From Runella sp. SP2 (GTDB taxonomy: Bacteria; Bacteroidota; Bacteroidia; Cytophagales; Spirosomataceae), in contig NZ_CP031030.1 in assembly GCF_003711225.1 (NCBI RefSeq), forward strand, positions 1,984,001 to 2,048,000: a stretch of DNA of 64,000 bases, given 5' to 3'. Both the position numbers and the translations under genes were made by a program. The notes under the pieces are model-generated. The model worked only from the letters and a program-made list of their open reading frames with translations, was not told the DNA's origin and ran no database searches. Within the stretch, counting starts at the first letter, position 1; the number at the start of each line of letters is the position of its first letter. This document shows, piece by piece, positions 35,001-40,966 of the stretch.

Positions 35001-36197
35001 TTAAACAGCAGGCAACACAGTATTTCTCACCTCTCCAAAATCAACTCGAACCCCTTCTTTTTCGGCATAGCCTCGAATGATGATGGTGTCAAAATCTTCT
35101 AAAAAACGTCGTTCTGTACCGTCAGGTAACAGAATCGGTTTTTTGCCTCCCCAGGTTAGTTCTAACAAAGACCCAAAACTGTCGGGTTCTTTTCCTGAAA
35201 TAGTGCCCGATGCAAGTAAATCTCCGACGTTTAAATTACACCCATTCACGGTATGGTGGGCAATTTGCTGGGCGACTGTCCAGTACAAATGTTTAAAATT
35301 AGAATGGCATAGTTTGATTTCAGTGCCCGAAGCCGTTTGCAAAATTACTTCCAACTCTACGTCGAAAAAGTGCCTGTTTTTTTCTTGAAGGTAGGGCAAG
35401 ACTGGAGGAGTTTGTTCTTCGCTAGCCACTTGGAAAGGAGCTAAAGCTTCAATGGGTACGACCCAAGGCGATACGGATGAAAAGAAGTTTTTGGCCAAAA
35501 AAGGCCCAAGGGGTACGTACTCCCATTTTTGAATGTCGCGGGCAGACCAATCATTAAATAGTTGAAAACCAAATATATACTCTTCGGCTTTGTTCACGTC
35601 AATGGCCTGTCCAATCGGATTGGTTTTGCCAATGACCGTGGCCATTTCAAGTTCAATGTCGAGGCGTTTGGTGGGTGAGAAAAAAGGAGGCTGACTTTCG
35701 TCGGGACAAAGTTGCCCTTTGGGACGATGAAAATTTGTGCCCGACACAAAAATCGAACTGGCACGCCCGTGATAGGCTACTGGAAGATGCTTCCAATTGG
35801 GCAATAGTGCTTTGTCGGGGTCGCGAAACATCATCCCAACGTTGGTGGCGTGCTGCTCAGAGGAGTAAAAATCGGTATAATCCCCAATTTTAACGGGTAA
35901 ATGAAGCAGCACATCAGCCACTTCATGAAAGACGGATGCTGGGAGCTGAGTAGGCTGTTTTAAAAGTTCCTTTAGGTGCGCCCGAACGGCATTGGTTTTC
36001 GCTTTACCCAGTGAAATGAAATCATTGAGGTAGTCGTTTGTAAAAACCCTTTTGGGGATTTTAAGGGCATCGAAGTACCCCAAATGGGCTAATTCTGCCA
36101 AGTCAACTACTTGATTTTCAATAATAGTTGCTACTTTTTTACGGCGATTTTTAACCGAAAAAATGCCAAAAGGGATGGTATCGAGGGAAAAGTTCAT
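35001..36197 (-). CDS. fahA: fumarylacetoacetase
   Basis: 398 residues. It cleaves 4-fumarylacetoacetate to fumarate and acetoacetate, the last step of tyrosine/homogentisate degradation, in the cytoplasm. Family landmarks are the small N-terminal SH3-like domain, KIGDYTDFYSSEQHATNVG with catalytic D109 and H116, the metal-binding glutamates in RLDIELEMATVIG (E182, E184), FNDWSARDIQKWEY and GTISGKEPDSFGSLLE. The length is normal. It lies downstream of hmgA on the same strand, separated only by the GxxExxY unit and its repeats. Confidence 0.96.
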   Translation of the reverse strand: MNFSLDTIPFGIFSVKNRRKKVATIIENQVVDLAELAHLGYFDALKIPKRVFTNDYLNDFISLGKAKTNAVRAHLKELLKQPTQLPASVFHEVADVLLHLPVKIGDYTDFYSSEQHATNVGMMFRDPDKALLPNWKHLPVAYHGRASSIFVSGTNFHRPKGQLCPDESQPPFFSPTKRLDIELEMATVIGKTNPIGQAIDVNKAEEYIFGFQLFNDWSARDIQKWEYVPLGPFLAKNFFSSVSPWVVPIEALAPFQVASEEQTPPVLPYLQEKNRHFFDVELEVILQTASGTEIKLCHSNFKHLYWTVAQQIAHHTVNGCNLNVGDLLASGTISGKEPDSFGSLLELTWGGKKPILLPDGTERRFLEDFDTIIIRGYAEKEGVRVDFGEVRNTVLPAV

Positions 36198-36209
36198 TTT
36201 AGGTGTTAT

Positions 36210-36310
36210 TTAAACACATAGATACATAGGATTTACACATAGTTTCACATAGCGTTCACTAATGATTTCTATTGTGAAAACTTCTATGTTTACTATGTGG
36301 TAAAAAAAGG
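36210..36310. repeat. hairpin repeat unit A (left flank of GxxExxY gene)
   Basis: The unit starts TTAAACACATAG, carries four ACATAG words on the left and two CTATGT words on the right (outer arms CACATAG / CTATGTG), and has an inner TTCAC/GTGAA arm pair. Its central 46 bases are identical to unit D at 36926-36960 and flanks. It begins 12 bases upstream of the fahA start codon. Confidence 0.8.
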
Positions 36311-36377
36311 TTAAACACATAGATACATAGGATTTACACATAGTTTCACATAGCGTTTTCTATGTGGTAAAAAATGG
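36311..36377. repeat. hairpin repeat unit B, internally deleted
   Basis: It begins with the same 45 bases as unit A but lacks the inner arm. The remaining core CACATAG-CGTTTT-CTATGTG still closes a perfect 7-bp outer stem, so the deletion kept the hairpin. Confidence 0.8.
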
Positions 36378-36410
36378 TTAAACACATAGATACTGACTCT
36401 TGTGTATCTA
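36378..36410. repeat. hairpin repeat unit C, partial
   Basis: It starts with TTAAACACATAGATAC and then diverges, but TAGATAC (36387-36393) pairs with GTATCTA (36404-36410). The GxxExxY leader begins just downstream. Confidence 0.65.
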
Positions 36411-36456
36411 AAAGTAAGAAATTCAGTCTTTATAGAAAGAACAAGTATATAGAGAT

Positions 36457-36879
36457 ATGAGTCAAATAATCACAAAAAAGATAATCAATGACCTGACTTA
36501 CCAAATCATTGGAGCTGCGATTGAAGTTCATAAAGTCCTAGGTCCTGGCCTGTTAGAAAGCAATTACGAAAAGGCATTAATTCATGAGCTTTCACTTCGT
36601 GGATTACGCACAAAAAGTCAACAAACGATTCAGGTACCATATAAGGAAATTTTGCTTGATTGTGAACTTCGATACGACATCCTCGTCGAAGACCTGGTGT
36701 TAGTGGAAAATAAGGCCGTCTTGGACATGCACCCTATTTTTGAAGCAACCTTATTGACCTATATGAAACACCTGAAAATTCCCAAAGGTATCCTAATCAA
36801 CTTTCATGTTTTGAACATTTTTAGCAGTGGACAGAAAACGTTTGTGAATGAGTATTTTCGAGAATTACCTGAATTATAG
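36457..36879 (+). CDS. GxxExxY protein, PD-(D/E)XK nuclease-like
   Basis: 140 residues, the usual size. The naming motif is GLLESNY (G31, E34, Y37). The nuclease-fold residues look complete: E34, D74 in LRYDILVEDL and E84-N-K86 in LVLVENKAV, as expected of PF13366/TIGR04256 proteins, which occur in many copies in some genomes and have no proven function. No export signal, so cytoplasmic. The gene lies between fahA and hmgA, transcribed against both, and is bracketed by hairpin repeat units A, B, C upstream and D 11 bases after its stop. This suggests that gene plus repeats moved in as a unit. Confidence 0.92.
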   Translation: MSQIITKKIINDLTYQIIGAAIEVHKVLGPGLLESNYEKALIHELSLRGLRTKSQQTIQVPYKEILLDCELRYDILVEDLVLVENKAVLDMHPIFEATLLTYMKHLKIPKGILINFHVLNIFSSGQKTFVNEYFRELPEL

Positions 36880-36890
36880 TAAAGGCCATC

Positions 36891-36977
36891 TAAACACATA
36901 GTTACATAGAAATTGCACATAGCGTTCACTAATGATTTCTATTGTGAAAACTTCTATGTTTTCTATGTGGTTAAAAA
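36891..36977. repeat. hairpin repeat unit D (right flank of GxxExxY gene)
   Basis: TAAACACATAG with a CACATAG / CTATGTG outer stem and the same inner TTCAC/GTGAA pair as unit A, in the same orientation. It ends two bases before the hmgA stop codon. Confidence 0.8.
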
Positions 36978-36978
36978 G

Positions 36979-38136
36979 TCACTCAATCCAACTTTGATAG
37001 TACTTCCCATCATCCAATTTCAACGCCTCTTCCGTAAGCGCAAGGGGACGGAACGTATCAATCATGACTGCTAGTTCTTCCGTAGAAGTTTTGCCAATGC
37101 TGCGTTCGTAAGCGCCTGGCGCTGGCCCGTGCGGGATTCCTCCAGGGTGGAGCGTAATGTGTCCTTTTTCAATGTTATTCCGACTCATAAAATCGCCATC
37201 AACGTAATACAGCATTTCGTCTGAATCAATATTTGAATGATTGTAAGGAGCAGGAATGGCCTGCGGGTGATAGTCGTACAGACGTGGGCAGAACGAACAA
37301 ACCACAAATGCCTTTGTCTCAAATGTTTGGTGCACTGGCGGCGGTTGATGAATCCGACCAGTTATAGGTTCAAAATTATGAATCGAAAACCCATAAGGGA
37401 AATTATATCCATCCCAACCGACCACGTCAAACGGATGCGTAGGGTAGAGGAGTTCGTACAAAATACCCTGTTTTTTTATTTTTAGGACAAAATCGCCCTT
37501 TTCGTCGTGCGTTTCGAGCTCTTGGGGGAGCTTGTAATCCCGCTCACAAAAGGGCGAATGTTCAAGCAATTGACCAAACCAATTTCTATACCTTTTCGGC
37601 GTGTAAATGGGGTGAAACGACTCGGCAAACAAAATCCGATTGTCAGTGCCATCGAAGTCAATTTGGTAAATCATGCCTCTCGGAATGACTAAATAGTCGC
37701 CATATTCAAATGGAATGTTACCCAGTTGCGTCCGTAAAATCCCCGTCCCTTGGTGAATGAAAAGTAGCTCGTCGGCATCAGCATTTTTGTAAAAATAGGA
37801 GCGGAGCGATTGACGCGGTGCCGCTAAGCCAATGTGAACATCAGCATTTGCCAATAACACCTTGCGGCTTTCTAAAAAATCGTCCTCAGCGGGAAGTTGA
37901 AACCCTTTCAACAGACGAGGCTTGATACTTTTTGAAATAGCAATTTTGGGATTTACATCGGTTTCGGACAAAACCTCACGAATCATAGTGGGACGATGCA
38001 CGTGGTACATCAGCGCCGACATCCCATCAAATCCGATGGTGCCAAACAATTGTTCGTAATACAACCCACCGTCGGGCTTACGAAACTGCGTATGCCGTTT
38101 GGGTAGAATTTTTCCGAGTTTGTGGTAAATAGGCAT
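36979..38136 (-). CDS. hmgA: homogentisate 1,2-dioxygenase
   Basis: 385 residues from the ATG at 38136 (MPIYHKLGKILPKRHTQFRK). A non-haem iron enzyme that opens the homogentisate ring to maleylacetoacetate. Characteristic stretches are LYYEQLFGTIGFDGMSALMY, the cupin-like middle (ELLFIHQGTG, YGDYLVIPRG) and the C-terminal iron-site region NHSNIDSDEMLYYVDG with HPGGIPHGPAPG. It is shorter than proteobacterial HmgA (about 430), as seen in the Bacteroidota branch. It starts one base after the marR stop, so both are cotranscribed; fahA lies beyond the GxxExxY unit. No maleylacetoacetate isomerase gene is in the window. Confidence 0.93.
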   Translation of the reverse strand: MPIYHKLGKILPKRHTQFRKPDGGLYYEQLFGTIGFDGMSALMYHVHRPTMIREVLSETDVNPKIAISKSIKPRLLKGFQLPAEDDFLESRKVLLANADVHIGLAAPRQSLRSYFYKNADADELLFIHQGTGILRTQLGNIPFEYGDYLVIPRGMIYQIDFDGTDNRILFAESFHPIYTPKRYRNWFGQLLEHSPFCERDYKLPQELETHDEKGDFVLKIKKQGILYELLYPTHPFDVVGWDGYNFPYGFSIHNFEPITGRIHQPPPVHQTFETKAFVVCSFCPRLYDYHPQAIPAPYNHSNIDSDEMLYYVDGDFMSRNNIEKGHITLHPGGIPHGPAPGAYERSIGKTSTEELAVMIDTFRPLALTEEALKLDDGKYYQSWIE

Positions 38137-38137
38137 G

Positions 38138-38578
38138 TTATGATGAAGTTGGAATACAGTTCTTAACAATCATTGCCAGCATTTCTTGGGCTGCCGAAAC
38201 CGACGCTGGCTCAATTCCTTCAAGGGCTTTTTGACGAATTTGGGGTACTAATTCCGTCAATTTTTCGATGGTTTCAAGCCCTTTTTCAGTAATGGTGAGT
38301 TGAAACATCCGCCGATTGGTGGGATGAATGTCACGCTCTAAAAAACCATTTTGAACCAATAATTCAATAATCCGAGTCACCGAAGCTTTGTCTTTGAAGA
38401 CTTTCTCGGCAATGTCATTTTGGGTACAGTCAGGATTTTCGGCGACTGTATTTAAAATCAACCATTGGTCAAGCGTAATGTCAAACCCGTTGATTTTGAA
38501 CTGGTTTTGAAAAAACTGACGATAGATTTTGACGGTTTTTTCTAAATTGTAGAAAAAGGAGGTCGTTAATTTTTTCAT
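38138..38578 (-). CDS. MarR-family transcriptional regulator of the homogentisate genes
   Basis: 146 residues from the ATG at 38578 (MKKLTTSFFYNLEK); the upstream extension is not conserved-looking and runs through the operator. Winged-helix elements are visible: LDQWLILNTVAENPDCTQNDIAEKVF, SVTRIIELLVQNGFLERD and the wing HPTNRRMFQLTITEKG. It is immediately upstream of hmgA, so it probably senses a tyrosine-pathway intermediate. An imperfect palindrome at 38614-38637 upstream of its start is the likely autoregulatory operator. Confidence 0.9.
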   Translation of the reverse strand: MKKLTTSFFYNLEKTVKIYRQFFQNQFKINGFDITLDQWLILNTVAENPDCTQNDIAEKVFKDKASVTRIIELLVQNGFLERDIHPTNRRMFQLTITEKGLETIEKLTELVPQIRQKALEGIEPASVSAAQEMLAMIVKNCIPTSS

Positions 38579-38613
38579 TGATTTTAAATTGTTGTGACAA
38601 ATATATTTAAAAT

Positions 38614-38637
38614 CAATAGTTGATGTATCAATTATTG
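38614..38637. promoter_or_regulatory. MarR-type operator palindrome
   Basis: Arms CAATAGTTGAT (38614-38624) and ATCAATTATTG (38627-38637) pair at 10 of 11 positions around GT. It lies 36-59 bases upstream of the marR start codon. The TTGAT-GT-ATCAA core is the size and symmetry expected for a MarR dimer. Confidence 0.65.
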
Positions 38638-38671
38638 GTAAAAATATTTCAAAAACCCTTAAAAACAAGAA

Positions 38672-40307: not shown

Positions 40308-40547
40308 ATGACGGTTCAAACCCTTTATGATGATGTGGCTAATTTTATTGCCAACATGAATCCTACTAAAATCCTTGAACTAAAAGCACCCCTTGAAGCT
40401 CAAGAGCGTGTACAGGCCTTGATTAAAAAGGAAAAAGAGTCAGCATTGACAGCTACAGAAAAAGATGAACTTGACCATTTTCTTGTTTTGGAACGATTGA
40501 TAAGGCTTGCTAAAGCACACGCACGCCAGCGCTTGAGTGGTGTATGA
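40308..40547 (+). CDS. small partner protein of the HNH endonuclease
   Basis: 79 residues from the ATG at 40308 (MTVQTLYDDVANFIANMNPT). Entirely helical and charged (ALIKKEKESALTATEKDELDHF), without known motifs. Its stop overlaps the start of the HNH gene (ATGA, 40544-40547), so translation is coupled. The arrangement resembles an antitoxin or immunity partner, or a subunit. I recognise it only as a commonly seen neighbour of this HNH type, not by function. Confidence 0.75.
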   Translation: MTVQTLYDDVANFIANMNPTKILELKAPLEAQERVQALIKKEKESALTATEKDELDHFLVLERLIRLAKAHARQRLSGV

Positions 40548-40966
40548 GCCAGAAAATACCTCGTGCTATCCGAAATAAAATTATTGAACGAGCTGAGCAT
40601 CGTTGTGAGTACTGCCGTATTCCTGATACGGATTCATATTATGGATTCCAAGTTGACCATATCATCAGCCGTAAACATGGAGGTGAAGATGAACTTGGGA
40701 ATTTTGCATATGCTTGTCCTGACTGCAATCGTTACAAAGGCTCGGATTTGGGAACATATCTTGGAAAAAATTTTGACTTTGTAAGATTTTTTCACCCTCG
40801 AATTGACGATTGGTCTTATCATTTTGAATTACAAACATCGGGATTAATCATTGGCAAAACTGATATTGGCAATGCCACTCTCAAAATTTTTGCTATCAAC
40901 CACCCAGATAGAATCATAGAACGTAAAGTGCTGTGCCAATTGGGATTAATGGATGTTTTTACTTGA
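40544..40966 (+). CDS. HNH endonuclease
   Basis: 140 residues, a McrA-like HNH nuclease. Zinc ligands C21/C24 (HRCEYCRIP) and C58/C61 (CPDCNRYKG) surround the active site VDHIISRKHGGEDELGN (D38-H39, H45, N53). The C-terminal 70 residues (FDFVRFFHPRIDDW ...) are typical of this subgroup. It overlaps the small upstream gene by 4 bases. It could be a defence or toxin nuclease, or a DNA-processing enzyme; there is no methyltransferase, terminase or phage gene nearby. Confidence 0.9.
   Translation: MSQKIPRAIRNKIIERAEHRCEYCRIPDTDSYYGFQVDHIISRKHGGEDELGNFAYACPDCNRYKGSDLGTYLGKNFDFVRFFHPRIDDWSYHFELQTSGLIIGKTDIGNATLKIFAINHPDRIIERKVLCQLGLMDVFT

Follow-up and report, generated by a model that had tools for sequence, protein, structure and literature searches.

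Repeat arms around a GxxExxY nuclease-like gene of Runella sp. SP2 point to a class of chromosomal word-hairpin cassettes

What is a small nuclease-like gene doing between fahA and hmgA, enclosed on both sides by hairpin repeats? The locus lies in a 64-kb stretch of DNA from Runella sp. SP2, the whole of which is called the window here. The 7.6 Mb genome of the organism (G000) was compared with the other genomes of the genus (G001 to G012, 13 in all), and L numbers denote loci. No assigned role for GxxExxY proteins was found in those parts of the open full-text literature that were covered, subscription papers and preprints being outside its scope. The window locus would be one member of an apparently undescribed class of elements, the chromosomal word-hairpin cassettes.

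The cassette between fahA and hmgA

The whole cassette occupies positions 36205..36978 of the window. It is flanked by fahA (35001..36197) and hmgA (36979..38169, start codon uncertain), and marR (38138..38668) follows. All three are minus-strand ORFs whose names come from an earlier sequence-only reading; for fahA, relatives were also compared. The GxxExxY gene (36457..36879, plus strand, 140 aa) was identified from its ORF and profile matches (PF13366/TIGR04256, PDDEXK_3), and it is antisense to both flanking genes. Upstream of it, on the plus strand, are hairpin unit 1, an arm of the CACATAG word with its reverse complement (36212..36302), hairpin unit 2, with the same outer arms in shorter form (36313..36369), and a lone 5' arm, AAACACATAGATAC (36380..36393). 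Downstream is hairpin unit 3 (36892..36972, plus strand), in which a 65-nt stretch is 95% identical to unit 1. Measured from the start codon of fahA, the repeats begin at 12 nt, and they stop 1-2 nt short of the stop codon of hmgA. Outside the 140-aa ORF, the gap consists mostly of CACATAG repeats. The original prediction, that a GxxExxY gene and its repeats fill the space between hmgA and fahA, is borne out by the ORFs and the hairpin coordinates.

Folded as single-stranded DNA, unit 1 reaches -12.9 kcal/mol, against a mean of -6.7 for shuffled sequences (z -3.2), and 0 of 200 shuffles did as well. With up to two mismatches, AAACACATAGNNACATAG has three matches in the window, all in the cassette, where 0.01 would be expected. 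Without mismatch, CACATAGNNACATAG occurs five times in the genome. Three copies are in the cassette and the other two make up one orphan CACATAG hairpin (C1:3436387-3436445). Three further single places were found with one mismatch, and a reversed control pattern gave two matches. These window counts, together with the control windows and neighbour-gene controls given below, rule out a chance origin of the repeats. A scan of positions 35900-37300 against Rfam gave no match near a gathering score; one match, to a microRNA family, was far below its gathering score and was discarded.

The window protein scores 117.7 bits against PF13366 (curated cut-off 22) and 122.5 bits against TIGR04256 (cut-off 35), and is thus over both curated cut-offs of the family. 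The family entries provide a name only (GxxExxY protein; PD-(D/E)XK nuclease superfamily), and repeats, words and cassettes are absent from them. PF13366 was the sole Pfam match to the ORF at E values up to 1, with no transposase and no S23. The PD-(D/E)XK catalytic residues, D74, E84, and K86, are invariant in alignments of 27 and 41 sequences, as are G29, G31, E34, and Y37, and nuclease activity is predicted from them. DNA is the usual substrate of PD-(D/E)XK enzymes. No relatives in the PDB were found by sequence. It was possible to compute dN/dS for 10 of the 13 orthologous pairs, the remaining three being saturated. Nine values were 0.03-0.07 and one, against a broken copy with few changes, was 0.26. 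GxxExxY genes are under strong purifying selection.

Several familiar roles were considered and rejected. PADLOC matched neither the window protein nor L001 nor L003, and gave a single weak Cas4 match for L002 (E 0.002), so a defence system is not indicated. There were 0 matches to the window protein in 50,697 phage records, and no viral contig was confirmed in a scan with narrow peptide patterns. Plasmid cargo is likewise not indicated. Matches were found in just 8 of 72,556 plasmid records, and each of the eight is typed as non-mobilizable. The gene and its repeats had been proposed as a selfish or mobilised unit; the unit holds, and the word selfish is weakened by the strong purifying selection and the absence of phage relatives.

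Inverted arms and their words

A PF13366 profile search of the genome identified four places. The four GxxExxY genes have four different words, each present on both flanks. The window gene, between hmgA and fahA, has CACATAG. The others are located between prs-like and nampt-like genes (CATATAAG; L003), between fucose-isomerase-like and transketolase-like genes (fucI-tkt, CGCAGAT; L001), and between leuB and a cimA-like gene (CAC[A/G]GAG; L002). The neighbour names at these three loci are presumed from the translations. The cassettes have a common plan of word arm, gene, and reverse-complement arm, and complete hairpins are sometimes found alongside.

GxxExxY genes are widespread. PF13366 matches are present in all 13 genus genomes (53 rows, fragments among them), and genes were found in 186 of the 395 genomes of a phylum sample. 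Flanks were taken from the genus loci, from the best-scoring phylum rows, which are not a random draw, and from 80 named-organism loci found by protein alone. Matches below 80 bits in a purpose-built profile and one duplicate (L026, of L050) were left out before counting. A total of 213 genes in 210 of 219 loci were kept, and 207 genes have 150 clean nt on both sides. The arm score is that of the inverted alignment of the 150 nt upstream of a gene with the 150 nt downstream of it.

A score of at least 24 was reached by 150 of the 207 genes (genus 27/40, phylum 67/90, named organisms 56/77), compared to 125 of 6412 control windows taken from these loci with identical geometry. At a score of at least 36 the numbers were 80/207 and 0/6412. 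Neighbour genes in the same loci, used as a further control, reached 24 in 8 of 82 cases and 36 in one of 82. For 125 of the 207 genes the alignment was better than all 200 dinucleotide shuffles; a cruder and less sensitive statistic, based on 6-mer pairs, beat all 200 shuffles for 84 of 213. Scores below 24 were found for 57 of the 207 genes and below 20 for 38, and among the inspected genes scoring below 20 some have one-sided words or direct repeats. When upstream flanks were paired with the downstream flanks of other loci, 110 of 1029 pairings scored at least 24, which is expected if some loci have common words.

Similar repeats were found at places in plasmid records. Inverted and direct repeats were both scored there with two sets of windows, and the best result was used. 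Seven of nine such places were equalled by at most 2 of 200 shuffles. These belong to Gemmatimonadota (L306), Alphaproteobacteria (L307), Fusobacteriota (L309), and Bacteroidota (L311, L420, L421, and L422). L307 passes with one window set only, and its annotated start puts an arm inside the gene. The place in Treponema (L308) is weak, with 8 or 14 of 200 shuffles as high, and L310 is negative.

Within a run, word starts lie 8, 9, or 10 nt apart (60, 70, and 69 cases), and the counts go up again at 18-21. AACC lies before or overlaps the word start in 62 of 301 outermost words compared to 9 of 321 inner words.

Words go with proteins. Protein identity is correlated with word similarity (Mantel r 0.28 over 192 loci and 18042 pairs; 0 of 1000 permutations gave so high a value), in a calculation from which pairs with homologous neighbours were removed. 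The nearest protein has a common word in 78 of the 192 loci, compared to 9% for a random one; among the 96 strongly repeated loci, it does so in 52, compared to 14%. For pairs of these 96 loci from different genomes, again leaving out those with homologous neighbours, word sharing was 173/1991 below 40% identity, 79/1214 at 40-50%, 233/940 at 50-60%, 136/317 at 60-70%, and 24/31 at 70% or more. Loci within one genus genome have a common word in 5 of 21 pairs, which is above distant pairs with protein identity uncontrolled.

The words of the window protein's relatives can be compared with those of the phylum sample. CACATAG, with at least three copies and on both sides, was found in 19 of 80 relatives and in 0 of 91 sample loci, and ACATAG flanks were found in 33/80 and 2/91. 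The reverse is seen for CACAGAG (0/80 and 16/91) and CGCAAAG (0/80 and 12/91). When loci are grouped by how similar their protein is to the window protein, those with ACATAG number 6 of 9 at 60% identity or more, 7 of 18 at 55-60%, 19 of 57 at 50-55%, 3 of 16 at 45-50%, and 2 of 112 below 45%. It appears very probable, from these sequence comparisons, that a GxxExxY protein recognises its own word. Cognate recognition would be the simplest reading because the D and E-x-K are invariant, the gene is bracketed by arrayed words, and word and protein covary.

Fixed junctions and solo hairpins

The cassette is present at 3 of the 12 readable hmgA-fahA junctions of the genus (G000, G002, and G003) and is absent at nine junctions of eight genomes; G007 and G008 were uninformative. 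Presence at one and the same place in all relatives, which was named beforehand as speaking against the original prediction, is thus not seen. The number of hairpins also varies, and G002 has two upstream of the GxxExxY gene and at least two complete hairpins downstream. At prs-nampt, G000 has hairpin, gene, and hairpin, and G002, with DNA 91-93% identical, has a single hairpin. G003 has a hairpin interrupted by another insert, and G009, G011, and G012 are without such a hairpin. The fucI-tkt junction contains a GxxExxY gene with CGCAGAT in G000, an S23-type gene (PF05635) with GTGATGAG words in G002 and G003, and a CACAGAG-type hairpin in G007. It is bare in G011 and G012. At leuC-leuD, GxxExxY genes are found in G001, G010, and G008 and S23 genes in G011 and G012. 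The latter two are 64% identical to each other between flanks of 91 and 93%.

At leuB-cimA, between G000 and G002, the upstream flank is 0.96-0.97 identical over 565 nt, ending 35 nt before the gene, and 0.91-0.93 identical further out. The arm, gene, and arm fall to 0.62, 0.67, and 0.76, and identity then returns to 1.00 over the next 100 nt, followed by 0.94. In G003 and G012 the arm, gene, and arm are 1.00, 0.99, and 0.98 identical and the flanks 0.75-0.94 upstream and 0.90-0.97 downstream, the contrast therefore being weaker on the downstream side. Across these genomes the junctions are constant and the cassettes differ, arms included. Since the gene and both arms change together here, and since the word tracks the protein, the claim that gene and repeats form one unit is upheld.

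Broken copies are also present in the genus. In G012 (L053) the leuB-cimA frame is broken; this gene and its intact counterpart in G003 (L029) are 99.5% identical, with flanks of 88 and 92.5%. This cassette appears to have been exchanged recently and to be decaying already. A C-terminal GxxExxY remnant of 60 aa, accompanied by CGCAGAG/CGCAAAG-like words, was found in G004 (L036), G010 (L055), G006 (L056), and G001 (L057), and G005 has a broken, fuller copy (L054). The gene downstream of these remnants is presumably ruvB, which it resembles.

The words could possibly be the operators of a host gene, that is, cis-acting autoregulation sites of a resident nuclease that have grown by slippage and do not move. 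Such an arrangement would agree with the strong purifying selection, the regular 8-10 nt spacing of the words, and the lack of phage matches and small number of plasmid matches. It is highly improbable given presence and absence at hmgA-fahA, prs-nampt, and fucI-tkt, cassettes that differ while the flanks are unchanged, and solo hairpins far from any such gene.

These solo hairpins are about 65 nt long, contain the CATATAAG word, and are dispersed in G000, G002, G003, G009, and G007. They were found at 51 of 60 fetched sites (15/20, 17/20, 9/10, 8/8, and 2/2, respectively), and one of the five G000 sites without such a hairpin is the CACATAG orphan. Of the 15 hairpins in G000 one is beside the gene, so at least 14 are away from the single CATATAAG-type gene of this genome. 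Among the 42 kept genus genes, besides which gene fragments were seen, only that of G000 has CATATAAG flanks. The draft genomes G002, G003, G007, and G009 have the hairpins without a matching GxxExxY gene. Repeat units had been expected to cluster next to GxxExxY genes. Three of the four CACATAG hairpins do so, and the CATATAAG hairpins do not. Repeats occurring mostly without a GxxExxY gene, which was named beforehand as speaking against the unit, were seen in part, in the CATATAAG hairpins of G000 that lie away from its gene and in the gene-less ones of the four drafts.

At 12 of the 15 hairpin sites of G000, its sister species G002 has a hairpin with both flanks matching. Therefore most of the hairpins are old, and recent jumping was not seen. 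For two solo hairpins an empty site was sought in relatives. G002 has a hairpin at each, and the hairpin-less relatives are too diverged for the footprint of an insertion to be read. In 13 orthologous hairpin pairs of G000 and G002, the inner part is flipped in five, the same in seven, and ambiguous in one. In all 29 orthologous pairs (L360-L419), several with weak alignments, 13 are flipped, 14 are the same, and two are ambiguous. Flips were scored also between genomes without a CATATAAG-type gene. They would be expected from resolution of an extruded cruciform, and equally from template switching at inverted repeats. At two sites where G000 has CATATAAG hairpins, G003 has a hairpin-rich insert of about 200 nt with TTCTACTAAGAT-like ends (L272 and L354), at one of them inside the hairpin itself.

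The hairpins might instead be of an ordinary REP/BIME-like kind that is moved by another enzyme, either a Y1 'RAYT' or host recombination, with GxxExxY as a passenger. CATATAAG hairpins that persist without a matching gene, and S23 genes in similar arms without a GxxExxY protein, would agree with this. So would the presence of Y1 matches in all 13 genus genomes, G000 itself encoding one intact REP-associated tyrosine transposase (NF047646, 96.3 bits, 196 aa; L335 1366-1953, C1:3.78 Mb). That transposase is surrounded by its own, different repeats, palindromes of the GGTTTTGAGAAACC type, and is an ordinary REPtron in the same genome. No exact CATATAAG was found in its 3.2 kb locus or in any of 20 Y1 loci, out of 60 Y1 matches in the genus, and Y1 matches are present also in genomes without CATATAAG hairpins. 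A word that tracks the protein sequence is not expected of a mere passenger. The passenger reading is thus quite unlikely.

Cassettes with S23 genes, known systems, and mechanism

A second gene family, S23, which encodes four-helix-bundle proteins, has the same kind of arms. Flanks were read for 30 S23 (PF05635) genes of the genus, out of 50 match rows (L276-L305). An inverted score of at least 24 was obtained for 17 of the 30, and 13 beat all shuffles. The S23 genes lie between ordinary genes and their words, such as ACTACTCAATACTCAATAC, CACCAGTCACTAACCACC, and CAGCCGACAGCCG, differ in kind from those of GxxExxY genes. At two junctions, fucI-tkt and leuC-leuD, S23 cassettes are found where relatives hold GxxExxY cassettes. 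The earlier reading of a single locus thus extends to a general class with many words and a second gene family. S23 cassettes in operon junctions are a bridge between word-hairpin cassettes and 23S rRNA intervening sequences. The intervening sequence of Coxiella 23S rRNA has an S23 ORF, terminal inverted repeats, and heptameric repeats, and its mobility is suspected (PMC4990558). The likeness lies in a small ORF within terminal inverted repeats, in the heptameric repeats, and in the suspected mobility; the window cassette differs in lying between fahA and hmgA rather than in rRNA and in encoding GxxExxY rather than S23.

This bridge also bears on whether the arms act in RNA. The arms could function in the transcript, with RNase III-like processing of hairpins, a protein that binds or trims word RNA, and insertion tolerated between operon genes. 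S23 genes, which are the ORFs of rRNA intervening sequences, have the same kind of arms and junctions, and the Coxiella sequence has its inverted and heptameric repeats (PMC4990558, as far as described there). Of 181 GxxExxY genes with both neighbours found, 139 are codirectional with both. The window gene belongs to the rarer kind, 14 of 181, that is antisense to both, and PD-(D/E)XK enzymes act mostly on DNA. An RNA-level element appears unlikely on balance.

In logic the cassettes resemble REPIN/RAYT systems, or REPtrons. In those systems a nuclease gene is flanked by its own hairpin repeats, hairpins are dispersed, and each enzyme has a specific repeat family (PMC6006769; PMC3116915). CATATAAG has both flanking and dispersed hairpins, and CACATAG has only one orphan. 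The cassette enzyme is PD-(D/E)XK and not an HUH Y1 transposase. Further differences are arms built as arrays of 7-8 nt words, low copy numbers, and whole-cassette differences at fixed operon junctions. By definition a REP hairpin has the tetranucleotide 5' GT[AG]G at its foot, and atypical classes without it exist (PMC6006769). This foot is missing from the cassette, where AAA(C) or (G)AACC was seen by eye before the first word. The TAACTGA repeats of Beggiatoaceae and Cyanobacteria are also intergenic heptamer arrays, for which a repeat-binding protein was suggested as a possible mobile element. They differ in being direct repeats with one main word, and a bracketed nuclease gene was not seen in the part of the report consulted (PMC4679880).

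An insertion sequence would have a transposase, which the cassette unit is without. No target-site duplication was found, in relatives whose empty junctions are too diverged for an insertion footprint to be read. The leuB-cimA differences fit a homing endonuclease element, with cleavage of the empty allele as the putative step. The cassette was filed under no existing system because the REPtron enzyme and foot are missing and because it is neither in rRNA nor S23-coding. Searches of open full text, apart from subscription papers and preprints, on GxxExxY, PF13366/PDDEXK_3/TIGR04256, S23/intervening sequences, Bacteroidetes hairpin repeats, and heptamer repeats did not find the cassette class among the matches listed. 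A search for the repeat letters gave, among the matches listed, titles and abstracts that looked unrelated.

What was observed comprises the unit, its presence and absence, a word that covaries with the protein, different cassettes at fixed junctions, and purifying selection. The explanation we prefer, and hold to be reasonably probable, is a chromosomal unit whose PD-(D/E)XK nuclease recognises the word of its own hairpins and whose cassettes are exchanged at junctions. As a rule, the cassette would have its GxxExxY gene between arms of 7-8 nt word repeats, with the word upstream and its reverse complement downstream. The protein very probably recognises its own word, as the covariation suggests. 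It probably nicks or cuts the arrayed words once the arms have been extruded into a hairpin or cruciform, and nicking in the extruded hairpin could produce breaks at the cassette edges. Repair from a relative's chromosome would then replace the cassette and little else, which matches the leuB-cimA pattern. If the two hairpins of a cassette recombined with each other, a single hairpin would remain, which matches prs-nampt. Through such repair and recombination, hairpins could be copied or deleted, their inner part flipped, and cassettes swapped at intergenic junctions. These outcomes were seen, and the enzyme is their putative cause. Whether DNA cleavage drives the exchange is evenly balanced, cleavage and mobilisation both being putative steps.

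If each lineage reads its own word, genomes hold many natural short nuclease-target pairs for biochemistry, as well as a route by which operon junctions get rewritten. A broader proposal, made tentatively and with rather less confidence than the chromosomal unit, is of an undescribed class that crosses phyla, carries a GxxExxY or S23 protein, and in each protein lineage recognises a separate, evolving word of 7-8 nt. The origin of 23S rRNA intervening sequences could then be explained by the arrival of S23 cassettes in rRNA genes. If this is true, the decades-old puzzle of these sequences gains a family and a testable mechanism.

One other ORF of the window was recorded. An HNH-endonuclease-like ORF, with CEYCR and DHI motifs identified by eye, is present at 40544-40966, preceded by a short ORF and 3.6 kb from the cassette.
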